Origin: Verrucomicrobiales bacterium
GTDB lineage: Bacteria > Verrucomicrobiota > Verrucomicrobiia > Verrucomicrobiales > DEV007
Direction of reading: 5' to 3'
Length of the DNA: 64,000 nucleotides
Assembly: GCA_016795385.1 (NCBI GenBank)
Contig: JAEUHI010000085.1
Coordinates: 124,001-188,000 of the forward strand
In this document: piece by piece, positions 37,763 through 52,858 of the stretch
Layout of the letters: each line of letters begins with the position of its first letter
Numbering within the stretch: the first letter of the stretch is position 1
Program-made: the position numbers and the translations under genes
The notes under the pieces: generated by a model
The model's database searches: none
Seen by the model: the letters and a program-made list of their open reading frames with translations, nothing else
Told to the model about the DNA's origin: nothing

Positions 37763-38635
37763 TCAACCGAAGACGATGGTGCGATTCGCGTGGACAAGAG
37801 TGCGCCGGTTCAGATGGAGCCAGACGGCGCGACTCAAGACGGTCTGCTCGAGGGCACGACCCTTCCGGATGAAATCCTGCACCGAGTCGCTGTGCGAGAC
37901 CGGCGTCACCCCTTGGGCGATGATCGGCCCCTCATCGAGATCCTCGGTGACGTAGTGGCTCGTCGCCCCGACCAGCTTCACGCCGCGTTTGTGGGCGGAA
38001 TGATAGGGTCGCGCCCCCGGGAAGGCGGGGAGGAACGAGTGGTGGATGTTGATGATCCGGTTCGGAAAGGCCTCCGTCATCAGCGGACTGAGGATCTGCA
38101 TGTAGCGGGCGAGGATCACGAGATCGACCTTTTCCTCCCGCAGCATCGCGATCTCGGCGCGCTCCTGCGCTTCCTTCGTCGCGGCGGTGATGGGGAAATG
38201 GCGGAAGGGGATCCCGAAACGCTCCGCGACCGGCTTCAGATCCTCGCGATTGCTCACGATGAGGGGGATGTCCATCCGCAGCTCGCCGCTTTCGTGGCGC
38301 GAGAGGAGATCGTAGAAACAATGGTTGTCCTTCGTCACGAACAGCGCGACGCGGGGGACGATGTCGGAAAAATGGAGCTCCCACCGCATCGCGAAACGGT
38401 CCACGAGCGGGGCGAGGGCCGCGGCGATCCCGTCGCGGGCGATCGCGAAGCCTTCGAGCTCCCACTCCACCCGCATGAAGAAGACCCCCTCCTCGAGATC
38501 GACGTGCTGGTCGATGTCGACGATGTTGCCCCGGTTCTCGTAGAGGAAGGTCGAGAGGGCGGCGACGATTCCGGCCTTGTCGGGACAGGAGATCAAGAGG
38601 ATCGCCGTCGGAGATTCTGTCGGAGAGGTGCTCAA
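37763..38635 (-). CDS. purU: Formyltetrahydrofolate deformylase
   Basis: Hydrolyses 10-formyl-THF to formate and THF. 290 aa, full length. An ACT domain is at about 10-90 (AILLISCPDKAGIVAALSTFLYENRGNIVDIDQHVD), followed by a formyltransferase-like domain with the catalytic N-x-H-x-S block INIHHSFLPAFPGARPYHSAHKRGVKLVGATSHYVTEDLDEGPII. PurU is separated from other purine genes here. Confidence 0.95.
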   Translation of the reverse strand: MSTSPTESPTAILLISCPDKAGIVAALSTFLYENRGNIVDIDQHVDLEEGVFFMRVEWELEGFAIARDGIAAALAPLVDRFAMRWELHFSDIVPRVALFVTKDNHCFYDLLSRHESGELRMDIPLIVSNREDLKPVAERFGIPFRHFPITAATKEAQERAEIAMLREEKVDLVILARYMQILSPLMTEAFPNRIINIHHSFLPAFPGARPYHSAHKRGVKLVGATSHYVTEDLDEGPIIAQGVTPVSHSDSVQDFIRKGRALEQTVLSRAVWLHLNRRTLVHANRTIVFG

Positions 38636-38668
38636 GGAAGGAAGGGCCGTCCGGCCGTTTCAGGAGAG

Positions 38669-38750
38669 TGCTCGAGGGGGGACTCGAACCCCCACAGGTT
38701 ACCCCACAAGATCCTTAGTCTTGCGCGTCTACCAGTTCCGCCACCCGAGC
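38669..38750 (-). tRNA. tRNA-Leu, anticodon AAG
   Basis: An 82-nt class II (long variable arm) tRNA. The acceptor GCTCGGG pairs with CTCGAGC with one G-T; the discriminator is A; CCA is not encoded. D arm is GCG/CGC around GAACTGGTAGA; anticodon stem CAAGA/TCTTG; loop CTAAGGA, giving anticodon AAG (38714-38716). The T arm GGGGG-TTCGAGT-CCCCC is perfect. GCGGAACTGGTAGACGC is the usual leucine D-arm. An A34 leucine tRNA is uncommon in bacteria. Confidence 0.92.
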
Positions 38751-38890
38751 GACTTCCTTGAGCCGAACCAAGGTCCGGCGCGAAGGGTTGCAATGCTAAA
38801 TGGGATTTAAAGGCTCTGCAAGCAGATTCTTTGGGGGTTCGGGGAGGTTTTTTCTTCCGCTCCGACTCGCAAGGCATCGCCGCGGGATCT

Positions 38891-38961
38891 CCAGCAGATT
38901 CAGGGAGGCCACCAGATGGGTATGTGAAAAAGGAATCTGCTGGCCTCCCTGAATCTGCTGG
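38891..38961. repeat. Perfect 21-bp inverted repeat
   Basis: The arms 38891-38911 and 38941-38961 (CCAGCAGATTCAGGGAGGCC plus A, and its exact complement) are separated by 29 nt. It lies between comM (stop at 38977) and the tRNA-Leu, with no T-tract after it, so a plain terminator is unlikely. It may be a REP-like hairpin or a structured 3' end. Nothing else is recognised in the 200 bp around it, apart from a partial copy of the arm (AAGCAGATTC near 38820). Confidence 0.75.
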
Positions 38962-38976
38962 AGAAAACCGGCCTCT

Positions 38977-40530
38977 TCAAACCCAGAGGTTCCGGTCGAG
39001 GGTGCGGTATTGGATCGCCTCGAGGACGTGGACTTCGCGGATATCGCGATCGCCCTCGAGATCGGCGAGGGTGCGGGCGACCTTGAGGATCCGGTCGTAG
39101 GCGCGGGCGCTGAAATGGAGGGTCTCCATCGCCTGCTCGAGGGTCCGCTCGCTGCGGGCGTCGAGGGCGCAGAATTCGCTGACGAGGCGGCTCCCCATGT
39201 CGGCGTTGCAGAGCACCCCGGGGTGGGAGACAAAACGCGCGAGCTGGATCTGCCGCGCCTCTTCGACCCGTTCGCGGATCACGGCGGAGGATTCTCCCCC
39301 GCTCTCGGCACGCAGCTCCCGGTAATCGACCGCCGGGACATCGATATGCAGGTCGATGCGGTCGAGGAGCGGACCACTGATGCGCTGACGGTATTTCTCG
39401 ATCTGGTTCGGCGAACACCGGCACTCGCGCGTCGGATCGCCGAGGTAACCGCAGGGACACGGGTTCATCGCCGCGACGAGGCTGAAACGGCTCGGAAAGG
39501 TGAACTTGCCCGCCGCCCGCGAGATCGTGACTTGGCCGTCTTCCAGAGGCTGCCGCAGCACCTCAAGGGTCGAACGGCGGAACTCGGGCAACTCGTCGAG
39601 AAAGAGGATCCCGTTGTGGGCGAGACTCACCTCGCCCGGAGTCGGCAGACTGCTCCCGCCGAGAAGCCCGACATCGGAGATCGTATGGTGTGGCGAGCGG
39701 AAAGGCCGCGTCGCGAGGAAGCTGTTTTTCCCATCGACGAGGCCGGCGACGCTGTGGATCTTCGTTGTCTCGATCGCCTCCTCCTCGGTCATGGCCGGGA
39801 GGATCGTGGCGAGGCGTTTCGCGAGCATCGACTTGCCCGTCCCCGGACTGCCGAGCATCAAGATGTTGTGCCCGCCCGCCATCGCCACCTCGAGGGCGCG
39901 CTTGGCGTGGGCCTGGCCTTTCACTTCATTGAAATCGATCGGGTAATGCTGCTTCGCGCGGAAAAAAGCCTCGCGGTCGAGCCGCTCCGGCTTGATGTGG
40001 CTTTCCCCGGCAAGCAGTCCGTAGGCGTCGCGGAGGGTTTCGATCCCATAGACGTAGATCCCTTCGACAATGCTCGCCTCGACCGCGTTTTCCTTGGGCA
40101 CAAAGATCGCGCGCAGACCCTGCTGTTTGGCCTGGAGCGTGAGCGGGAGGATGCCCTTGATCGGACGGACCCGTCCATCGAGGGCGAGTTCGCCCGCCAT
40201 CGCGCACTTTTTCAGGGCGCCATCGGTGAGCGCGCCATTCTGCTCCTGCGCGAGCGAGACCATGCCGATGGCGATGGGCAGGTCGAAGCTCGGCCCTTCC
40301 TTGCGGAGGTCGGCGGGGGCGAGATTGATCGTGATGAGTTTGCTCGGCCAACGCAGCCCGCTGTTTTTCACCGCGGTGATGACCCGGTCGATGCTCTCGC
40401 GCACCGCGGCATCCGGTAGACCGACGAGTTTGAAGTCGACCTTGCCCACGTCCGACGCATTCACCTCGACCTCGACAGGCACGGCATTGACGCCATGGAC
40501 GGCTCCGGAATAGACGCAGGTGAGGGACAT
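38977..40530 (-). CDS. comM: ComM/YifB-family AAA+ ATPase (Mg-chelatase-like)
   Basis: 517 aa. An N-terminal Lon-like fold ([22 protein letters not shown]) precedes the AAA+ domain with Walker [14 protein letters not shown], Walker [11 protein letters not shown] and a C-terminal lid ([19 protein letters not shown]). In Vibrio, ComM is a branch-migration helicase acting in natural transformation. It is preceded by a partial copy of its own 5' end at 40732. Confidence 0.92.
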
Positions 40531-40977
40531 GGGAGAAAGTTCGTTTCCGGACTTTTCCCGAGATCTTTCCCGAATTCAACCGAAAAACTGTTCAAAAACC
40601 CATCAATCGATCGACGTAGGGGCGATGACTCCTTCAAGGAACGCGAGATCCTCAGCGTTCCACAGATTGGTGGCCTAGGAGGAGGGCCGGGTGATTTCAG
40701 AGAAAAGCTGACCTGTCCCCGTGGCTTTTCGACCTCGACCTCGACAGGCACGGCGTTGACACCATGGACGGCTCCGGAATAGACGCAGGTGAGGGACATG
40801 GGAGAAAGTTCGTTTCCGGACTTTTCCCGAGATCCTCAAGACTTTCCATTAAAAACTGTTCAAAATACCATCCACCCATCGAGTCCGGAAAGATTTCGAC
40901 AGTGACGACGAAGTCCTCCGGGAAAGGCGGGAAAAGGCCGGTTGATCCCGCCACAGCGATGCATTAACATCAGATGC
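40531..40977 (-). repeat. Gene-free stretch with partial tandem duplication of the comM 5' end
   Basis: About 100 bp around the comM start (40463-40565) recur nearly identically at 40732-40834, 269 bp upstream: first 22 codons, ATG and leader. Weaker similarity (both have AAAAACTGTTCAAAA) runs on to about 40885. Copy B could encode [20 protein letters not shown], then reads into unrelated sequence. ACCTGTCCCC (40711-40720) abuts the left edge of copy B. No gene is seen in the rest. Confidence 0.75.
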
Positions 40978-41211
40978 ATGCGAACCACGCTCGATATTGA
41001 ACCTGACATCCTTCAAGCGGCGAAAGAGATCGCAGCGAAGGAGAAAACCACCGCCGGCGCGGTGATTTCGCGGTTGGCACGAAAGGGAATGTCGCCGGAA
41101 CCGGCCGCCGGTGAATCGAAGATCCGGAACGGCGTGCCGGTAATTCCCGCCTCGGGACACATCATCACTCTCGAGCATGTGCAACGCCTCATGGACGAAG
41201 AGGGCATTTGA
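40978..41211 (+). CDS. Antitoxin of second VapBC-type pair
   Basis: 77 aa, opening MRTTLDIEPDILQAAKEIAA, a short beta strand and helix typical of RHH/VapB antitoxins, followed by RLARKGM and a flexible C-terminal toxin-binding tail ending EHVQRLMDEEGI. Its stop overlaps the toxin start (TGATG at 41209). The ATG at 40978 was chosen; the frame extends further upstream. Confidence 0.75.
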   Translation: MRTTLDIEPDILQAAKEIAAKEKTTAGAVISRLARKGMSPEPAAGESKIRNGVPVIPASGHIITLEHVQRLMDEEGI

Positions 41212-41645
41212 TGAGAGCACTCCTCGACATCAATGTCCTCCTGGCTCTCTTGGACGAGGATCATGGATTCCATGATCGCGCCCACGCATGGTTCGGCAAT
41301 CACTTCTCTCTCGGATGGGCCTCCTGCCCTCTCACGGAAAACGGTCTCGTCCGCATTCGGTCGCATCCGCATTACCATCCCGTCAACAGACGTTCCCCCT
41401 CCGATGTGATCGCCGCACTCGGCACCTTCATTTCAGCCGGAAACCACGAATTCTGGCCCGATCTCCCCACGCTGCGCGATTCCACCCGGTTCGATCCTTC
41501 CCGCATCCTCGGTCCCCGGCAGATCACCGATCTTTATTTGCTCGCCCTCGCAACCGAGCGCGGGGGACGTCTCGTCACGTTCGATGAAGGCGTGAATCTC
41601 GCTGCCGTGCCTCGCGCGACAAAAGCGAATCTCTGCGTCATTTGA
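41211..41645 (+). CDS. PIN-domain toxin of second VapBC-type pair
   Basis: 144 aa. The PIN signature opens MRALLDINVLLALLD (first Asp); E in SCPLTENGLVRI, D in QITDLYLLALA and D in LVTFDEG complete the acidic site. A different subgroup from the VapC-like protein at 12120. The likely start is the ATG at 41211, one base overlap; a TTG just before it is the alternative. Confidence 0.85.
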   Translation: MRALLDINVLLALLDEDHGFHDRAHAWFGNHFSLGWASCPLTENGLVRIRSHPHYHPVNRRSPSDVIAALGTFISAGNHEFWPDLPTLRDSTRFDPSRILGPRQITDLYLLALATERGGRLVTFDEGVNLAAVPRATKANLCVI

Positions 41646-42066
41646 CCGGCTTCCCGACGCGTGCAACCTGAGTCGACGACATCGCGGGTGCCTCGAGCCG
41701 AACTCTGCTTTCCTGCAGGATTTCGCGGGCCGTTGGGCGGGAAGGCGCGGAGTCCATCTCCTCACGTCCGGTGGCCGGCCAATCCTCCAACCCAGCCTCG
41801 CCTCCCACCGGCGAGGGGGTGGAGGTGGACTCGTCGGGCCAATTCCGGTAGAGTGAATTTCTTAACCTGTCCCTGTGAATTTTTCCCTGTGAATTTTGGC
41901 AGCGGTCGTTTGCTCACCGACGCGGGCGGCCGACGGGACAGAGCCGACTGCTAGGAATTTCCTTTTTCATCCCCTCGGCTCCCTTCCCGCCGTAGGACTG
42001 CTAGGAATTTCCTTTTTCATCCCCTCGGCTCCCTTCCCGCCGTAGGCCCGGGGTCGGTGGGGGTTC
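41646..42066 (+). repeat. Gene-free island edge with tandem copies of the GC-rich dispersed repeat
   Basis: No gene between the PIN toxin and the BrxL remnant. An ACCTGTCCCTG element lies at about 41865. A 50-bp unit beginning GACTGCTAGGAATTTCC and ending CCCGCCGTAG is in tandem at 41947-41996 and 41997-42046; the second copy continues with GCCCGGGGTCGGTGGGGG to about 42066, where the BrxL sequence begins. The same family recurs at 52565-52748, and a diverged copy lies at 49846. Confidence 0.75.
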
Positions 42067-43485
42067 GAATCCCACATTTACTCCGAGTTCTCCCCACACG
42101 GCATTCTCATTTCGGGTGGTGAGATCACGGCAGCCAAGCTCTTCGTGAACAATGCGTCAGGCAAGATCGGCCTGGTGGGCTACTGGGACAGTGTCTGCTT
42201 CGACGAGTTCGCCGGCAAGGACAAGCGGGTGAACAAGGATCTCGTCGACATCATGAAGAACTACATGGCCCAGAAGACCTTCTCCCGGGGCATTGAGAGC
42301 CTGGGGGCGGAAGCGTCGATGGTCTTCATGGGCAACACGAAGAAGTCGGTGGACTACATGATGCGCTACTCGCACCTCTTCGAGCCCCTGCCCGACAAAT
42401 ACATCGATTCGGCCTTCCTCGACCGCATCCACGCCTAACTGCCCGGATGGGAGGTCAGCTCGATCCGGAACGACCTCTTCAGCAGCGGATACGGCCTCAT
42501 CGTCGATTATTACGCCGAAATCCTGCGTCATCTCCGGACCCAGGATTTTTCCCATCTCTACGAATCGGCCTTCCGCATCGAGTCGGACATCACGACCCGG
42601 GATCTCGACGGAGTTCGCAAGACTTTCGGCGGTCTGATGAAGGTGCTCTACCCTCACCGGGAATGCACCGCGGAGGAGACTCGGGAGATTCTCCAATTCT
42701 CGATGGAGTGTCGGAAGCGCGTGAAGGACCACATCCTGCGGATCGACGAAACCTTCGAGCGAAAGACCTTCGAGTTCGTCGCCACCGAGGGAGGGACTCC
42801 CGTCATCACCGTGAAGACGCCGGAGGAGATTGCCAACCCCGTCTATGAGGGGCCACCGCCGGGACAGATTCAGGCAACGACAGCCGAGAGGGGGAACGAC
42901 GATGAATCGAGCGAGGAAATGGACGGGGCTGCGGATGAGATGGAATTGGCCCACGAGGCAATCGAGCTGGAGACGGATCCCGAAGTGCCTTCGCCGGACA
43001 TCCTTGAACGGATGTCGGTTGAGACCCTTATCGCAAAGGGGGAGAGTTCCTTCGTCGAGTTCAAGAGCACTCTCCGCGTTAATCTCCACACTAAGGAAGC
43101 GGACCCGAAGATCGAGCTCAGCGTGCTGAAGACGATCGCGGCTTTTCTCAACTCGAAGGGCGGCGGCACGCTCATCATCGGCGTGGATGACAACGGCACC
43201 GCCCTGGGGCTGGAGGCCGACAATTTCAAGAATGAGGACAAGATGGCCCTCCACTTCCAGAATCTCATCAAGGACCGAATCGGTATCGAACATGCCGCCC
43301 ACATCATCCCGGCCTTCGAAGATTTTGCGGGAAAGCGAGTCCTCCGCATCGACTGCTCCCCAAGCCACGAACCGGCTTACGTGAAGAACGGGAACGTCGA
43401 GACCTTCTTCATCCGGACTGGCCCATCGACAAACGAACTGCCCACCAGCAAGATCCACGCTTACATCAAGCAGCGGTTTTACTGA
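42067..43485 (+). pseudogene. brxL: Truncated BrxL (BREX AAA+) fused to AlbA_2 domain, with nonsense codon
   Basis: A remnant of a BrxL-type gene (TIGR02688-like). The frame starts within the Walker A region: SHIYSEFSPHGILISGGE follows the repeat directly, so GxxGK is missing. BrxL blocks follow: GLVGYWDSVCFDEFAGK, IMKNYMAQKTFSRG, ASMVFMGNTKKSVDY and AFLDRIHA-stop-LPGWE. TAA at 42436-42438 replaces the expected Tyr codon. Frame continuity resumes after it (VRKTFGGLMKVLYPHRE; ECRKRVKDHILRI). The C-terminus is not the Lon-like protease but an AlbA_2/Schlafen-type domain (about 43018-43485): ESSFVEFKSTLRVN, GGGTLIIGVDDNG. A shorter product from the ATG at 42637 is conceivable. No other BREX gene is present. 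Confidence 0.82.
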
Positions 43486-43523
43486 CGTTCCTTTGCTGGA
43501 GCGTCCAGGATCGCGATGGCGGC

Positions 43524-44096
43524 TCACTTGCCCCAGCATACGAGGCCGAATCCCCGATTCGCCCATTTGGACCGGGAGAACCGGGGCCACGGGATCTCTT
43601 TATGCCCGGTGAGGTTGTTGATGAGCGGCAGCCCCTCGCCCGCGATGAAGACTCGGTTGGGCCTCCGTCCATAGCCGTAAATGACGACCCAGTGTATGAC
43701 ATCGGAGCGCTCCGTTTTCGTGAGGGTGATGATCGGATAGCCCTGTTCAAGCGTCGCGGCAATGTTTTCGAAGTCCAGATCGTGCCGCAGGCCGACACCG
43801 ATGCCATTGGCACGGAGGCTGCGGACAAGACGGTTTTGCTGAAGCCCCATCTCACGATCGGGGCTGCATTGTTCGAAAAACCTCCTCAAGGACGCGCCGT
43901 GATGGAAGGTGTGGAGGATCATGGCTCCGGCGACGAAACCACAGGTGTAAGATTCGACCTGGCGGTATCCCTGTATGTCTAGGATGCAGACGTCCTTGCC
44001 TGCCGGGGGCAGAAGAGGATCAGGCACGAGACGAAGGCCTGTGGCGCTTGCGAGGATATCCAAGGCTTTCTTCGCGGTTTTGTTGAAGTTGAACAT
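43524..44096 (-). CDS. C39/papain-like cysteine peptidase-like protein, last gene of an unnamed operon
   Basis: 190 aa, no signal peptide apparent. The layout suits a C39-type fold: Q-V-E-S-Y-T-C-G-F-V-A-G provides a Gln/Cys pair around residue 52; IHWVVIYGYGRRPNRVFIAG provides the catalytic His, followed by a strand; GLPLINNL is distal. EQGYPIITLTKTE precedes the His as in the family. No leader-peptide transporter is attached, so a bacteriocin exporter is unlikely. It ends the three-gene run starting at 44894 on this strand; the gap from the middle gene is 39 bp. Substrate unknown. Confidence 0.6.
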   Translation of the reverse strand: MFNFNKTAKKALDILASATGLRLVPDPLLPPAGKDVCILDIQGYRQVESYTCGFVAGAMILHTFHHGASLRRFFEQCSPDREMGLQQNRLVRSLRANGIGVGLRHDLDFENIAATLEQGYPIITLTKTERSDVIHWVVIYGYGRRPNRVFIAGEGLPLINNLTGHKEIPWPRFSRSKWANRGFGLVCWGK

Positions 44097-44135
44097 GATG
44101 TTGAGGCGATGGTACGGACCCTTCAGGAGCGTCGA

Positions 44136-44372
44136 TCAATCAAGATCGAAATCAACATCCGCCCCCTCGTGATTGAACCTCAGTTCCCTGATTCGGATCT
44201 GAAGCCCTCCGGCTTCAATCTCTGCCGAAGTTTTGACGTCAATGTTTTTTGCATGAACCCTGAAATCCCTGTTCGTGTAGTTGACCTCGCCGTTTTCGAA
44301 ACGGCAATGGTCACCCACAAAACGCTTCAACAGCCGGTTTACATCAACGCTTTTCAATTGAATTTTTGACAT
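44136..44372 (-). CDS. Small beta-rich protein of the C39-like operon
   Basis: 78 aa, soluble, no signal or Cys cluster. The N-terminus IQLKSVDVNRLLKRFVG resembles that of the next-upstream gene product (IVLDESSVNVLLKRVLG), so the two are probably related. The rest has alternating polar and hydrophobic residues and ends DVDFDLD. Family unknown. It is 15 bp from the upstream gene's stop and 39 bp before the peptidase gene. Confidence 0.6.
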   Translation of the reverse strand: MSKIQLKSVDVNRLLKRFVGDHCRFENGEVNYTNRDFRVHAKNIDVKTSAEIEAGGLQIRIRELRFNHEGADVDFDLD

Positions 44373-44387
44373 GGTTCTTACTCCTTT

Positions 44388-44894
44388 TTAAACGATCGAA
44401 AATACCAACTTGAGCATGTTTTCCCGGCCGTTTCCGACTGAGATTGAATGGAACCGAATCAGATCCGTGAGCTTCATTTTGCCTCCCTCCCCGTCAGGAA
44501 CCCGGACTGACGACAAATCGTAATCGAGGTCGTATAACCCTCGGATTGTTAGGGGGCCGTGATTTCTCAGGTGCGGCGCGAAGAAGAAAAACGCACTGCC
44601 AATACCGGAAAAGTGAAACGCTTGTTGAATCAACGCGCCAACTCCGTGAAGTTCCAGATTCGCCCGCAGGACGTGCTCACTCACGGACAGACGGAGATCC
44701 GCTTCGACGGAATCTCCCATCAGTTGTGAAAACGGAATCATCCCTCCGGCGAAGTCGACCGTGAGATGAAGATGGTCGCCTTCATGCCTGGCCCTGAAGC
44801 TCTTCACAGGGGTCCTCTTCCCCAGAACCCGCTTCAACAGGACGTTCACCGAACTTTCGTCAAGAACGATCTGGCTGTGAGTTTCGACTGTCAT
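44388..44894 (-). CDS. Hypothetical protein, first gene of the C39-like operon
   Basis: 168 aa starting MTVETHSQIVLDESSVNVL (ATG at 44894; the open frame extends upstream without support). It has the same V-N-x-LLKRxxG opening as the small protein after it, then amphipathic strands (HLHLTVDFAGGMIPF; LRLSVSEHVLRANLELHGVG), possibly a lipid- or membrane-surface fold. One hydrophobic stretch, SAFFFFAPHL, is too short for a transmembrane helix. I recognise no family. The three genes form a tight unit of unknown purpose inside the island. Confidence 0.6.
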   Translation of the reverse strand: MTVETHSQIVLDESSVNVLLKRVLGKRTPVKSFRARHEGDHLHLTVDFAGGMIPFSQLMGDSVEADLRLSVSEHVLRANLELHGVGALIQQAFHFSGIGSAFFFFAPHLRNHGPLTIRGLYDLDYDLSSVRVPDGEGGKMKLTDLIRFHSISVGNGRENMLKLVFSIV

Positions 44895-44942
44895 GGTGGA
44901 TTCGTTCCGTTCATCGCATCGGTCCGCTTCCCGCATAAGGAC

Positions 44943-45183
44943 CGTGGGCGGTGGGGATTCAGCCATGGCTGGTTTTCAGATACGGCTTGAATCTCTAGCC
45001 ACAGGCGTCCTCGTCATGGCCTCCGATCGGGTCCTCGAAGTGAAAGAGGTTCTTCCCAGGGACGAATCCATATTGACGTTCGAGGAGCCCCACCATCTCC
45101 ATCGCATGCTTCGTCGCCCCGGCTTCCATGAACTGGTTGCGCGGAAAGCGACTTTCCGAAGGGGACTGCGACGTGTCTTGCAT
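44943..45183 (-). pseudogene. Remnant of an alpha/beta hydrolase (PF00756-type) C-terminus
   Basis: The frame reads GATKHAMEMVGLLERQYGF, then PGKNLFHFEDPIGGHDEDACG, a stop (TAG near 44995) and RFKPYLKTSHG. This matches the last 60 residues of esterase D-like enzymes, where the catalytic His lies in a G-x-H-[DN]-E-x-x-W segment; TGG appears to have become TAG. The rest of the gene is missing and the upstream end abuts the UDG-like gene's stop. Not related closely to the intact esterase at 10974. Confidence 0.5.
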
Positions 45184-46013
45184 TAGTGAGCAGGATCGAA
45201 ATTCTTGACCAACCCGTCTCGAATCCCAGCTTGGATCGCTGAGCAGATCGGCTCGTAGAAATCACGGACATGCGACTTCCCGGGGGCGGAAAAGTGCCAT
45301 CCGTCAATCAGGAGAGACGTCTTCGCTCCGGATCGAAGGACGTAGGTGTCGACCGGCCCACCGGACGAGCGACACTCCAACGCGCCAAAGCGCGGCAGGA
45401 ACTCACCGATATTCATCGTGATGACGACGTCCGGATCAAGAAGTTCGACCTCGCGCTTTATGAAATCTCCCGAACAATCTACCGAAAGCCGTATCAAGTT
45501 CCAGTCGGCTGAAAACTCGTCTGCGCTCTCGTTGCTGAACTTTGAAAGATTCATCGTTGCGAAACTGATGCCTTGGGCGGTTGCAAAGGTGTCGCCGATC
45601 CTTTCAGCCCATGGAACATCGTCCCACTTTTTGCATCCGTGTAGAACCCCGTGGGCGATATGGAGCATTCGCGCATGATAGAAGGCCGAGTTCAAATGCT
45701 TGGCGCCACCGGTAACTCCGATTTTTTTGTCTATTCGGTAGGCTGGTAGAATTTCATCGAGGTAGTCGCAGTTCGCCAGGCCGAGCGATTCCCGTCCGAC
45801 GTAGAGGATTTTCAGAGGCTGCTCGTAGAAATAGGGGTAAAACCCGTCCCAGACGAAACCTTCCGCGAGTGACTTCTTTTCGGGTGGTAGCGTATGGCGC
45901 ATCGCTTCCTGCCAGTCGTCGAACAATTCAAGGAGCTCGAGGCGCTTCCCCAGTTCGGCATCAGGGAACCCCTGAAGTTTCAAGTGGAAGTTTGGATCGT
46001 TCATGTCTCTCAT
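45183..46013 (-). CDS. UDG-superfamily-like protein coupled to the DUF2779 nuclease
   Basis: 276 aa, cytosolic. Two blocks resemble uracil-DNA glycosylase motifs: ILYVGRESLG early on (cf. the A motif GxxPG region) and IDGWHFSAPGKSHVRDFY near the C-terminus (the His-containing B motif position). The core also has FATMNLSKFSNES and DPDVVITMNIGEFL. The resemblance is to fold, not to a named family, and the UDG catalytic Asp is not obvious. It begins inside the preceding gene (ATGA overlap at 46010-46013), which shows translational coupling. The alternative start ATG is at 46004. Confidence 0.6.
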   Translation of the reverse strand: MRDMNDPNFHLKLQGFPDAELGKRLELLELFDDWQEAMRHTLPPEKKSLAEGFVWDGFYPYFYEQPLKILYVGRESLGLANCDYLDEILPAYRIDKKIGVTGGAKHLNSAFYHARMLHIAHGVLHGCKKWDDVPWAERIGDTFATAQGISFATMNLSKFSNESADEFSADWNLIRLSVDCSGDFIKREVELLDPDVVITMNIGEFLPRFGALECRSSGGPVDTYVLRSGAKTSLLIDGWHFSAPGKSHVRDFYEPICSAIQAGIRDGLVKNFDPAH

Positions 46014-47536
46014 ACAGTTTCGTTAGCTTCTACGCCTTGAGGGGTCAAGGCAGATTCTCTCCGGAACACCTGCCACAGCCTCACTAATGCCAGCGTATCC
46101 AGGTGACAATACGCCAGCAACTCCCGGCGGATCGCCTCGCGCCTTTCTGGTGTCGTTTCCGAAGCGACAGCCTCTTGAAATGCCTCCACCGCCATCTGAC
46201 CATCGGCGACGCCGACGAGCGTGTCATAGGAAAGATCGGGGCAGACGGCGTGAAGGACAGCCTTGAGGCTCCAGCTTCCGTGCTGGTTCGGGGCGTAGAA
46301 GTGGGCCTTGGCGACGGGAAGCAAGTCCACGATCCGATCGGCAATGGCGAGGAGTGGGGCGGAGAGGTCGGGAAAGCGCCCGGCCAGTTCGCGAATCACC
46401 CTTCGCTCGAAGCCCGCGTTGTAGACGAAGACGGGGCCTTCGATGCCACAAGTGTCGACGAGCGCCCTCGCGAGTGGTTCCGAAGGTTCAGCTCCCCCGA
46501 GTTCGAGAAAGGCGTCGTGATGGATTGTCCCATCCACCTCGACGCGGTGCAGGCTGAATTGGAACGGGATCTGTTGGTAGGGCCGCGTTCCCTTCCAGAC
46601 CGGCACCGGCATCATGACGGTTTCGAAATCGAGGAAGGAGGCCGGAAAGTCATAAGGTTTCAGCGCCGCAGAAGCCCCCGCCGCGTCGAACCAGGACACG
46701 CCCGAGATCGTGACATCGCGGACATGTCTTTGGAGGTCGGTTAGAAAAAGGTCGGGCACTTCGCGCAGATCGGTAACGCCCAGGGCCTCGACCGATTCCC
46801 TGCGGGCTCCGCTGAAGTTGGGGAGCGACGCGAGCGGATACTCCACGGCCGGTTCTTCACGCGAGCAATAGGCGGCGTAGGGACAGTTGAAGGGATCGCA
46901 ACACTGGGGGCCCATCGGAATCGCCGGCTCTTCGGTGGATTCGGCCATCTCTCTGGCTTCCTCGATCCACTCCTCCACCTCGTGCGATCGGGACTTCGCC
47001 TCACCCGTGAGATCGACCTCGTAAAAGAGCCCCCGATAATCCCCTTCCCCGCCGTAGACGAAGGTGTTGTCGAGGTGGGCGATCCCGGCCCAGGTGAGAG
47101 TCACGCCCATTTTATGCGCCAGATAGGCCTGAATGGCGAGATCGTCACGGTGGTAGTCCTTTACTCCCGTGGTGGACTTCACTTCGAGCATGCGCCAGCT
47201 CGGGCTCCCATACAAAACCGTCGGGAGCATCACGTCGACAAATGCCAGGGCTCCGCTGCCATGGAGGCCAGCTTCGAAGACCGGCCCATCTCCCTTCCTG
47301 AGCAAGAAGGCAGAACGGCGAAAGGCTTCATCGTAGCCCAATTCCGCAACTTCGACGAGGGCCCCCTTACCCTCCGGATCATAGACCCGTCGGGCGATCT
47401 CGCCGACTTCGTTCCCAATCCGGAAGACCGCCTCGGCACCGGAGTCGTCGCGCAGCTCGGGACGGTGGATTTCCAGCCAGAGCCGCTTCGGACACTGGCG
47501 GTAGGCGATGAGTTTGGACTTGGAGAGTGGGCGCAT
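46010..47536 (-). CDS. DUF2779 protein: Cas4-like PD-(D/E)XK nuclease plus RNase H-like domain
   Basis: 508 aa. The N-terminal half resembles Cas4/RecB-family nucleases: CPKRLWLE with C15, the nuclease core MLEVKSTTGVKDYHRDDLAIQAYLA (catalytic Glu and Lys about 117-119), and a Cys cluster QCCDPFNCPYAAYC around 210-223 that with C15 could hold a 4Fe-4S cluster. The C-terminal half (from about 300) carries FLDFETVMMPVP and HLDTLALV, an RNase H-like/DnaQ-type acidic set. DUF2779 proteins are nucleases found in defence contexts. It has an operator-like sequence 52 bp before its start and is coupled to the UDG-like gene. Confidence 0.8.
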   Translation of the reverse strand: MRPLSKSKLIAYRQCPKRLWLEIHRPELRDDSGAEAVFRIGNEVGEIARRVYDPEGKGALVEVAELGYDEAFRRSAFLLRKGDGPVFEAGLHGSGALAFVDVMLPTVLYGSPSWRMLEVKSTTGVKDYHRDDLAIQAYLAHKMGVTLTWAGIAHLDNTFVYGGEGDYRGLFYEVDLTGEAKSRSHEVEEWIEEAREMAESTEEPAIPMGPQCCDPFNCPYAAYCSREEPAVEYPLASLPNFSGARRESVEALGVTDLREVPDLFLTDLQRHVRDVTISGVSWFDAAGASAALKPYDFPASFLDFETVMMPVPVWKGTRPYQQIPFQFSLHRVEVDGTIHHDAFLELGGAEPSEPLARALVDTCGIEGPVFVYNAGFERRVIRELAGRFPDLSAPLLAIADRIVDLLPVAKAHFYAPNQHGSWSLKAVLHAVCPDLSYDTLVGVADGQMAVEAFQEAVASETTPERREAIRRELLAYCHLDTLALVRLWQVFRRESALTPQGVEANETV

Positions 47537-47587
47537 GGGGCAAGGGGAGAAATGAAGGGCTTCGTGTCTTCCACATTCTACTCGGTC

Positions 47588-47607
47588 TTGCGACAGAATA
47601 GGTCGCG
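47588..47607. promoter_or_regulatory. WYL-type operator copy 1, upstream of the DUF2779 gene
   Basis: TTGCGACAGAATAGGTCGCG holds the inverted repeat GCGAC-N7-GTCGC. It lies 52 bp before the DUF2779 start. The reverse complement of the site at 48844-48863 matches it at 19 of 20 bases. Confidence 0.7.
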
Positions 47608-47678
47608 TTCAATTCACCGCTGGATTCTCCGGCCTTTCTCCATGCGACAATCCATCGACGAAACACTCACGTTTTCCG

Positions 47679-48704
47679 CTACCCCGGGCAAGAGCGTCGG
47701 TCATCCCGATACGCCGCCCCCACCTCCTCTACGGTCGCCATGATCTCTCTCCGCAGTGCGGCAGGCTGGTTCACGACGATCTCAGCTCCCTGCGACAAGA
47801 TCCAAAACCGGAGCTGCCACGAGTCGAAGACAGTCGCGGAGAGACGGAGGCCGTCCTTTCCTTTCGCAATCCTCTGATCCTTGGACATCGGGGTTTCCTC
47901 GAGGATCCGGGAGAGGCTCTCCGAGACCCCCGCCTTCAGAGTGATAACACGCCCTTCTCCGAACTGCCCTCCGCCGCGTTCGAGAAAATCGTCCAAGGTG
48001 AAGCCCTCGGGTCGGCGAGCTGGAGTCTCCAAGGCCTCCGCCGAGGCGATGCGGTGCAACGCGTAGAGGAGCGGCTTCTCGCAGCGGAGGGAGCACGCGA
48101 CGAGGTAGGTGCGCACCCCTTGCTGCAGAAGCGCGAGCGGATGCAGATTGCGTTCCTTCGGCTCCGTCTCTCCTGCGGACAAATAGCTCACACGAAGTTG
48201 CCGCGAATGCAGCAGCGCCTCCTGCACTTCGCGGAGGATCGAAGGCAACACCGTCGGCGGCAAAAAGGTGAGGCCGGGTGGGACGTAGCGGACCCGCTCG
48301 CTCCATTCGGCCCGCTCGTTTCCCGCGAGGCTGGAGAGCTTTCGCCGCGCCTGTGCAAAGCGCCCTTCGAGTCCACGGACGAAGGATTCGGGCACGAGCG
48401 GGCGCAGCACCTCCTCGAGCAGCCCGAGGCTGAGCGCCTCGGCGAGGTCCATCCCCGGTATCTCGGGCTGCGCGCCCGGCTCCCAATACCAGCCGTAGGG
48501 TCTGGAAATCTCGTTGCAATAGATCGGGAAAACCCGGGCTAGTTCGGCCAAGTCGCGTTCTACCGTTCGCTTGGTTACACGATAGCCCTCCGCCTCCAGC
48601 GCCTCCATGAGATCCCGTGCCTTTTTCCCCGGTGGGCGCGAGGGAAGGAGGCGCAGAAGTTCCCATTGGCGGGCGAGAGTCGATTCTTTGTCGGCGCGCG
48701 GCAT
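47679..48704 (-). CDS. WYL-domain transcriptional regulator
   Basis: 341 aa. Residues about 10-60 form a DeoR-type winged helix (LLRLLPSRPPGKKARDLMEAL, then TKRTVERDLAEL). The WYL domain lies at about 145-230 (LRVSYLSAGETEPKERNLHPLALLQQGVRTYLVACSL), with the WCX C-terminal extension ending in WILSQGAEIVV. WYL proteins commonly sense nucleic acid ligands and control defence genes such as BREX, CBASS and others. The start ATG at 48704 precedes the HTH. Predicted to bind the sites at 48844 and 47588. Confidence 0.88.
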   Translation of the reverse strand: MPRADKESTLARQWELLRLLPSRPPGKKARDLMEALEAEGYRVTKRTVERDLAELARVFPIYCNEISRPYGWYWEPGAQPEIPGMDLAEALSLGLLEEVLRPLVPESFVRGLEGRFAQARRKLSSLAGNERAEWSERVRYVPPGLTFLPPTVLPSILREVQEALLHSRQLRVSYLSAGETEPKERNLHPLALLQQGVRTYLVACSLRCEKPLLYALHRIASAEALETPARRPEGFTLDDFLERGGGQFGEGRVITLKAGVSESLSRILEETPMSKDQRIAKGKDGLRLSATVFDSWQLRFWILSQGAEIVVNQPAALRREIMATVEEVGAAYRDDRRSCPG

Positions 48705-48843
48705 GGAGTCGGAACGGGTCGTCGGTTTCGGTGGATCGTGGATCGCGGGAGGGACTCCGCGACGCGAGAGCGCGAAGTGTCTTCCGGTCGAGCAATTAGC
48801 ACACGGGGGGGGGCGTTCCAGCAAACGCCCGCGTCGCGGCAAA

Positions 48844-48863
48844 CGCGACCTATTTTGTCGCAA
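48844..48863. promoter_or_regulatory. WYL-type operator copy 2, between the WYL gene and a divergent gene
   Basis: CGCGACCTATTTTGTCGCAA contains GCGAC-N7-GTCGC. It sits 140 bp before the WYL start and 62 bp before the plus-strand gene at 48926, so it could control both directions. The 222-bp gap also has a run of G and GCGTCGCGGC next to the site. Confidence 0.65.
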
Positions 48864-48925
48864 GGACGTGTATCTTCGAAGAGAAAAATCAACGATGTGA
48901 CATTTTTCGACGCAACCATGCCTCG

Positions 48926-51992: not shown

Positions 51993-52564
51993 AATCTTTT
52001 TCGGGGTAAGTCTTCGATTACCCTCAATCTCACTGCATGCCAATAAAAATTTTCAATAGTGAATTTCAGCATCTCTGAAGATCACAATCTCCCCGGGCAG
52101 TTTGCCTGGCGGACTCACCTGCCGTTACTCTGTCGCGCACGGTCTCCAAGTGCGTCTACGGAGCCGCAATACTTATGCAAGTTGGTTTTGCCGGTCATCA
52201 GTGGGTACGCACTCCACCTCTGGAAGGTCGGCTGCCGCAGCGTAGCACTACCACGGCACCTTGGGCAGGGATGCAGCCACCCGCCACCACCAGGCCCGGC
52301 AGATCGCCGAGCGTGGGCCCATGCCGCTATATCTTGCCGACGTCCACCTCCACCGCGCCCGGCTCTTCCCCAAATCGTAACGCTCGCGACCAAGCCCGCA
52401 CCTGATCGTCCGCCACGTCCATGGCCGCCACCGCGGGGAACCGGCTGATACCGATGCAAGCGCCCCCTTCTCTTTCCGACTCTTCTCTCATAACTGATGA
52501 GTGCAATCACAGAACCCAATCCTACCGAATTCCATGCCCCGATCAAGCTCGGGAACTGCTAGGA
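51993..52564. other. Gene-free stretch, nothing recognised
   Basis: About 570 bp between the coiled-coil gene and the repeat cluster. I see no complete gene. A minus-strand frame near 52300-52480 reads like coding sequence in short pieces (AVAAMDVADDQVRAW) but is broken by stops. It may be a decayed gene. Confidence 0.4.
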
Positions 52565-52748
52565 ATTTCCTTTTTCATCCCCTCGGCTCCCTTCCCGCCG
52601 TAGGCCCGGGGTCGGTGGGGGTTCGGGGGGAGGTAGGGGGCGATTAGGGCCATCCGATTTCCTTTTTCATCCCCTCGGCTCCCTTCCCGCCGTAGGCCCG
52701 GGGTCGGTGGTGGTTCGGGGGGAGGTAGGGGGCGATTAGGGCCATCCG
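52565..52748 (+). repeat. Tandem 92-bp units of the GC-rich dispersed repeat
   Basis: Two units at 52565-52656 and 52657-52748, nearly identical. Both contain CCTTTTTCATCCCCTCGGCT, CCCTTCCCGCCGTAGGCCCG and GGAGGTAGGGGGCGATTAGG. The first part equals the 50-bp unit at 41947. No spacers, so not CRISPR. Confidence 0.8.
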
Positions 52749-52858
52749 GGCAAGAATCGCCTGAAGTCAGCCTCGGAGTCAACGTTTTTCAGGCTAAGCG
52801 TGACGGGGTCGCGGGCAATGGATCGAAAAATCGGACGATCAGGGCACAGCGTTTTGCT

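Follow-up and report, generated by a model that had tools for sequence, protein, structure and literature searches.

A relic brxL gene with a Schlafen AlbA_2 tail in a Verrucomicrobiales genome, and its intact counterparts in marine Verrucomicrobiota

Introduction

The anti-phage mechanism of bacteriophage exclusion (BREX) systems is debated, with BrxL usually being required for restriction, but not for methylation. Herein, we describe a relic brxL gene joined in frame to a Schlafen-type AlbA_2 domain, located at 42067–43485 (+) of a 64,000 nt stretch of DNA from a Verrucomicrobiales bacterium (assembly GCA_016795385.1, contig JAEUHI010000085.1, positions 124,001 to 188,000 of the forward strand; hereafter the window), and compare it with intact examples and with the closest described systems. 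BrxL is an ATP-dependent DNA-binding ring, the C-terminal domains of which face away from the DNA (PMC10164562).

In the canonical protein the C-terminus is an inactive Lon-like domain (PDB 8EMC; PMC10164562); its N-terminal and AAA+ domains, and its role in BREX, resemble those of the fusion, whereas the C-terminal domain is a different one. Nearer to the fusion is BrxL-HKD of type I BREX, described as a combination of BrxL_N, BrxL_ATPase and MIT_C (PMC12839542), which shares with it the N-terminal domain (in the intact fusions), the AAA+ core (up to 78 % identity over 242 residues), the linker and a position beside PglZ, but which bears an HKD/PLD effector where the fusions bear AlbA_2. According to the main text of that survey, the broadest recent one, type I BrxL tails are only Lon-like or HKD, type 4 proteins have no added tail, and Schlafen RNases occur as separate neighbours (PMC12839542). 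Such stand-alone enzymes tie a Schlafen-family RNase to BREX, as does the fusion, yet each is described there as a separate gene joined to a minimal histidine kinase and a winged helix-turn-helix, outside BrxL. Beyond BREX, the same AlbA_2 subfamily serves as the C-terminal module of GmrSD_N (DUF262)–AlbA_2 proteins (≤60 % identity), the N-terminal part of which is GmrSD instead of BrxL and which are not BREX core proteins. The SAMD9 tRNase domain and the N-domains of Schlafens SLFN5, 11, 12, 13 and 14 are alike in fold (VIA Z about 9–13) and, in the case of SLFN13, in the E-E-D active site, but belong to animal antiviral proteins of around 20 % identity that have no BrxL AAA+ ring.

Results

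The element at 42067–43485 (+) is a single frame of 472 codons with a natural TGA end and one internal stop, and its translation displays neither a start codon nor a frameshift. Residues 2–235 match positions 79–312 of the 313 in Pfam BrxL_ATPase (PF13337; E 1.4e-86), and residues 326–458 match positions 1–117 of the 118 in SLFN_AlbA_2 (PF04326; E 1.5e-20), which bears out the initial annotation of a BrxL–AlbA_2 fusion, a reading made from the sequence alone and accurate in position throughout. The PADLOC BrxL model PDLC02508 likewise matches the frame (E 9.4e-126), whilst the match to NCBIfam TIGR02688 (4.4e-88) falls short of the curated cut-off, as that of a truncated gene would be expected to. 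The BrxL AAA+ ATPase portion (42070–42771, +) runs from just past Walker A to the end of the domain, and is 78 % identical over 242 residues to the HKD-type BrxLs L138/L032. Next come the last part of the BrxL core and a linker that is acidic and of low complexity (42772–43041, +), similar to the one that precedes HKD in relatives, and then an AlbA_2 domain (43042–43482, +) that is complete and has its own stop codon.

That the gene is a pseudogene, as had also been proposed, is apparent from its 5′ end and from the internal stop. Relatives carry GPKGTGKSHIYSEFSPHG, of which the window retains SHIYSEFSPHG alone; since GPKGTGK directly precedes these residues in relatives, and BrxL sequence in the window starts with them, brxL has been cut within Walker A. 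Walker A and all upstream parts of the gene are absent from the window copy, in which Pfam gives no match to the BrxL_N domain (PF20442), and it is therefore classed as a relic of BrxL rather than as a working protein. The missing 5′ half is not present elsewhere in the genome, where a query with the BrxL N-terminus retrieves only a Lon-type paralogue on contig C88. The in-frame TAA (42436–42438, +) occupies a position that is Tyr or Phe in relatives (HAYIPGW, HAFAPGW, HAYNPGW). Divergence from the nearest HKD-type BrxL is dominated by third positions (0.17/0.12/0.52 per codon position), so that most of it is older than the loss of the gene. The window copy is what is left of a type I BREX brxL in which HKD had previously been exchanged for AlbA_2; the gene is dead, and no function is expected of it.

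An intact version had been suggested to exist elsewhere, and was sought by a genome contig scan (GTDB, 84,980 species) using AlbA_2 patterns, with the whole fusion as confirmation. Two loci match fusion residues 1–470, L056 (E 5e-148) and L057 (E 4e-150), the next best being a single-domain match; both belong to marine Verrucomicrobiota metagenome-assembled genomes (MAGs). Neither of the outcomes that would have refuted the initial annotation was seen, as AlbA_2 is recognized in the window and both domains stand in one frame in other genomes. L056 is an open frame of 675 codons with BrxL_N (PF20442, 4.1e-49), BrxL_ATPase (1.4e-122) and SLFN_AlbA_2 (2e-18), and retains GPKGTGKS (Walker A) and VAFDEFAG (Walker B). 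The genes on its contig (locus L167) lie on one strand and encode BrxA (PF08849, 3.4e-45), BrxB (PF08747, 3.5e-42), BrxC, PglX, PglZ, BrxL–AlbA_2 and a DUF4268 (PDC-S11) protein, with PF08665 also matched and BrxC, PglX and PglZ called by PADLOC. This is a complete type I BREX operon. The L057 contig begins inside the gene, and has the same architecture across the part present. L057 and L056 are 98.7 % identical in DNA until two bases beyond the stop codon, after which the downstream DNA differs. Such near-identical genes in differing downstream contexts, within MAGs of different Verrucomicrobiota groups, suggest transfer of a BREX island, or else a binning error. Comparison of the two genes shows 14 synonymous changes and 1 non-synonymous change in the BrxL part, 1 non-synonymous change in the linker, and 5 synonymous and 0 non-synonymous changes in the AlbA_2 part, plus one two-base codon change that keeps Leu. 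From this synonymous excess, albeit in small counts, both domains look to be under purifying selection.

With regard to the tail that was replaced, the initial annotation had named the Lon-like end of canonical BrxL, and in this respect it requires correction. In the set examined, 28 distinct BrxLs with a readable tail share 53 % or more ATPase identity with the window, and every one of them ends in HKD/PLD, as detected with a hidden Markov model (HMM) built from relatives, in which 14 of the 28 tails were seeds and so match by construction; of the tails tested independently against Pfam, 5/5 match MIT_C (PF16565). Lon-type BrxLs are no more than 48 % identical to the window in the ATPase (set examined). 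As the near relatives are all HKD-tailed and Lon-types more distant, the window copy and the intact fusions descend from HKD-type BrxL; exchange of one effector for another is the simplest reading, given that every near relative with a readable tail carries a nuclease there. Neither the window nor L056 nor L057 has a match to the HKD profile. One BrxL-HKD gene (L051:8716–10779), in the BREX locus of a genome of the same family (G422), adjoins a long prokaryotic Argonaute (PADLOC pAgo_II, 2.6e-227; L051:5987–8299, −).

A structure model of the window AlbA_2 domain, built with 47 relatives, has a predicted local distance difference test score (pLDDT) of 94.1 and a predicted template modelling score (pTM) of 0.89. 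The highest VIA Z scores are to DIP2311 (3lmm, 14.8), the hSAMD9 DNA-bound domain (7ksp, ‘DBD’, 12.9) and the rSAMD9 tRNase domain (9o0d, 12.6), with Schlafens 5, 11, 12, 13 and 14 mostly at about 9–10, ahead of the first unrelated structures, which score about 5. Foldseek also returns SAMD9 tRNase and Schlafen matches, and a PDB profile search finds Schlafens (best 6.4e-6). Both SAMD9 and SLFN13 domains of this fold are tRNases (PMC12331169, PMC5862951). The alignment places the Glu codons at 43042–43044 (+) and 43057–43059 (+) and the Asp codon at 43189–43191 (+) opposite SLFN13 E205, E210 and D248, respectively, once 13 additional residues at the beginning of the deposited chain are taken into account, an offset deduced from the triad spacing; mutation of any one of these residues reduces cleavage by SLFN13 (PMC5862951). 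Across 48 domains the triad is conserved in 48/48, 48/48 and 47/48 cases, respectively.

Phylogenetic analysis does not place the AlbA_2-bearing BrxLs together. In the BrxL ATPase tree the window copy is placed with HKD-type BrxLs (starred, 100/97), and the partner of the intact fusion is a different HKD-type BrxL, L005 (starred, 99/96); constraining the AlbA_2-bearing proteins to one clade is rejected (approximately unbiased test, AU p = 0.002), so that the single fusion family implied by the initial annotation gives way to separate BrxL branches. In the best AlbA_2 tree a starred set of GmrSD–AlbA_2 domains takes in L056 and L057 but not the window domain, although a joint clade is not rejected (AU p = 0.127). 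Because the two lineages are not sisters, either the swap occurred twice or the module moved between BrxLs. As judged from these trees, no fewer than two BrxL lineages have acquired AlbA_2, through two captures or through a single capture with subsequent exchange of the module. The likely donors are GmrSD_N–AlbA_2 proteins: 76/91 AlbA_2 rows are DUF262/GmrSD by motif (one example, L053, being confirmed by Pfam), and the domain nearest to that of the window, at 60 % identity, sits in such a protein. These GmrSD_N (DUF262)–AlbA_2 fusions (L053, L059–L066 and others) are a large family across bacterial phyla and archaea, pairing a restriction-type protein with a Schlafen tail. In other Verrucomicrobiota loci (L026, L027, L029, L030 and L038) the same type of AlbA_2 appears from sequence to be joined to membrane sensor-like proteins and a response-regulator receiver-like domain.

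Two scans of viral contigs gave no BrxL–AlbA_2, and only three loci, in which AlbA_2 lies in, or resembles part of, GmrSD–AlbA_2 proteins. Amongst plasmids, 329–330 records match BrxL or AlbA_2, with a clear fusion in none. Two apparent matches of 81 % coverage, on Runella and Haliscomenobacter plasmids, extend beyond the ATPase at 34–35 % identity, are annotated brxL and do not recur as wide matches to the intact fusion.

At its 5′ break, the relic is abutted and truncated by a dispersed repeat (41946–42067, +), comprising a tandem 50-base unit and then a copy of approximately 71 bases. The homology of the repeat stops at 42067, its end coinciding with the 5′ break of brxL, and the standing of this element in place of the 5′ half likewise marks the gene as a relic. 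The ~71-base repeat has about ten further matches in the genome, with copies on contig C81 (window 52555–52750) and on contigs C14, C15, C72, C77 and C80 of the same assembly (G000). More generally it is a unit of ~71 bases or more, TGCTAGGAATTTCC...CCCGGGGTCGGTGGGGGTTCGGGGGGAGG..., found at many genome sites, sometimes in tandem, and truncating brxL at one of them. The T-arm-like GGGGGTTCGAATCCCAC at the break was considered as tRNA-derived and rejected, as ARAGORN and Rfam give no tRNA there; since other copies of the repeat continue GGTTCGGGGGGAGG, the likeness to tRNA arises at the join.

No other BREX genes or remnants were found in the window, in which tblastn of BrxA, BrxB, BrxC, PglX and PglZ gave a best E no better than 0.7. 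The genome does hold another BREX locus (L050; contig C88, about 38,500–48,900), with a Lon-type BrxL, PglZ, an OLD-like ATPase and PglX. A PF08665 search of this genome returns no match, which is misleading, as PADLOC finds PglZ on C88 (3.6e-287). Elsewhere in the window, the start of a ComM-like ATPase gene (38977–40530, −) is duplicated 269 bases away (40463–40565 versus 40732–40834, 98 % over 103 bases).

Discussion

The BrxL–AlbA_2 fusion is real, and is a variant of a known BrxL rather than a new kind of system. We consider, with modest confidence, that it is best explained as a rare BrxL variant with a Schlafen-type RNase as its effector, triggered by the ring on foreign DNA, a reading that draws on the domain composition, the BREX operon context, purifying selection, the triad, the predicted fold and the existence of at least two AlbA_2-bearing BrxL lineages. 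In such a scheme the N-terminal and AAA+ domains would form an ATP-driven ring on DNA marked as foreign by the BREX complex, and assembly of this ring would gather six or seven AlbA_2 domains, or release them on their linkers. The E-E-D site would then cut RNA, most likely tRNA or rRNA, leading to a translation stop in the infected cell, with the AlbA_2 RNase acting as a second effector alongside the PglZ nuclease. RNase activity, target RNA and triggering by the ring are all predictions of this scheme.

Several points weigh against it. Binding of nucleic acid by AlbA_2 domains need not entail cleavage, and a triad alone is no proof of catalysis. There are just two intact examples, with genes that are 98.7 % identical, and no further BrxL–AlbA_2 fusion was found among 1,853 whole genomes (sampled within Verrucomicrobiota at order, class and phylum level, in Planctomycetota, to which L065 belongs, and in Alphaproteobacteria, the class of the Qipengyuania locus L075) or in the plasmid collection; the fusion is rare. 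The full-length L056 model, with a mean pLDDT of 68.9, a poor ATPase core and values under 50 for residues 215–359 and linker residues 487–519, is too weak for placing AlbA_2 in the ring. Finally, the C-terminal domain of Lon-type BrxL links two rings (PMC10164562), which makes a structural role for AlbA_2 possible.

This last consideration leads to the more substantial of the rival explanations, namely that the tail is no enzyme but binds nucleic acid or dimerises, taking over the ring-joining or DNA-handling of Lon-like or HKD domains whilst PglZ and other BREX parts restrict. The Lon-like terminus does indeed hold two rings together tail to tail and lacks a protease site (PMC10164562), the structure of 7ksp, among the best fold matches, is that of a complex with DNA, and GmrSD–AlbA_2 proteins bear the N-terminal domain of a restriction-endonuclease family. 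We nevertheless regard this as rather unlikely, given that the triad is invariant or nearly so, that the lost HKD domain is a nuclease, and that SAMD9 and SLFN13 share the fold and are tRNases (PMC12331169, PMC5862951). Less probable again is an RNase that makes no ordinary contribution and serves solely as a back-up, by abortive infection, when a phage inhibitor, for instance, blocks PglZ-based restriction. The survey cited above treats Schlafen-family RNases as back-up effectors, associated with BREX loci in >1,000 taxa, and puts forward BrxL-HKD as an auxiliary of PglZ (PMC12839542), but in the fusion the domain is part of a core protein and strongly constrained; moreover, this alternative departs from an RNase triggered by the ring in timing, not in chemistry.

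A different kind of objection is that the join in the window only resembles the intact fusions, having arisen by a chance deletion that brought an unrelated AlbA_2 gene into the frame of a brxL fragment, or as an assembly chimera. The piece is a relic bordered by a repeat, its nearest AlbA_2 domain sits in a GmrSD–AlbA_2 protein, and it lies on a different BrxL branch from L056. Yet the reading frame continues across the join, which falls at the domain boundary behind the linker, the point at which HKD begins in relatives; the AlbA_2 domain is whole and ends in a stop codon of its own, and codon-position G+C is similar in the BrxL (0.54/0.37/0.83) and AlbA_2 (0.55/0.36/0.78) parts. With the same architecture intact in two other genomes, an accidental join is highly improbable.

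Taking the variant with a Schlafen-type RNase effector as the best explanation, the testable weight of the finding lies in the intact BREX operon on the L056 contig, and the fusion gives a test of BrxL as a licensing motor with an exchangeable warhead. Tentatively, and with rather less assurance than for the variant itself, a BrxL ring on foreign DNA could be viewed as activating a Schlafen/SAMD9-like tRNase, thereby coupling DNA-sensing restriction to a translation stop, with the C-terminal slot of BrxL being an exchangeable effector port (Lon-like, HKD or AlbA_2) that AlbA_2 has filled more than once. If true, exchange of a DNA nuclease tail for a Schlafen-type RNase would mean that more than one kind of effector can be driven by the BrxL ring, and would link BREX to the Schlafen/SAMD9 tRNase theme of animal antiviral defence. 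Some BREX systems may, therefore, act on RNA besides DNA.
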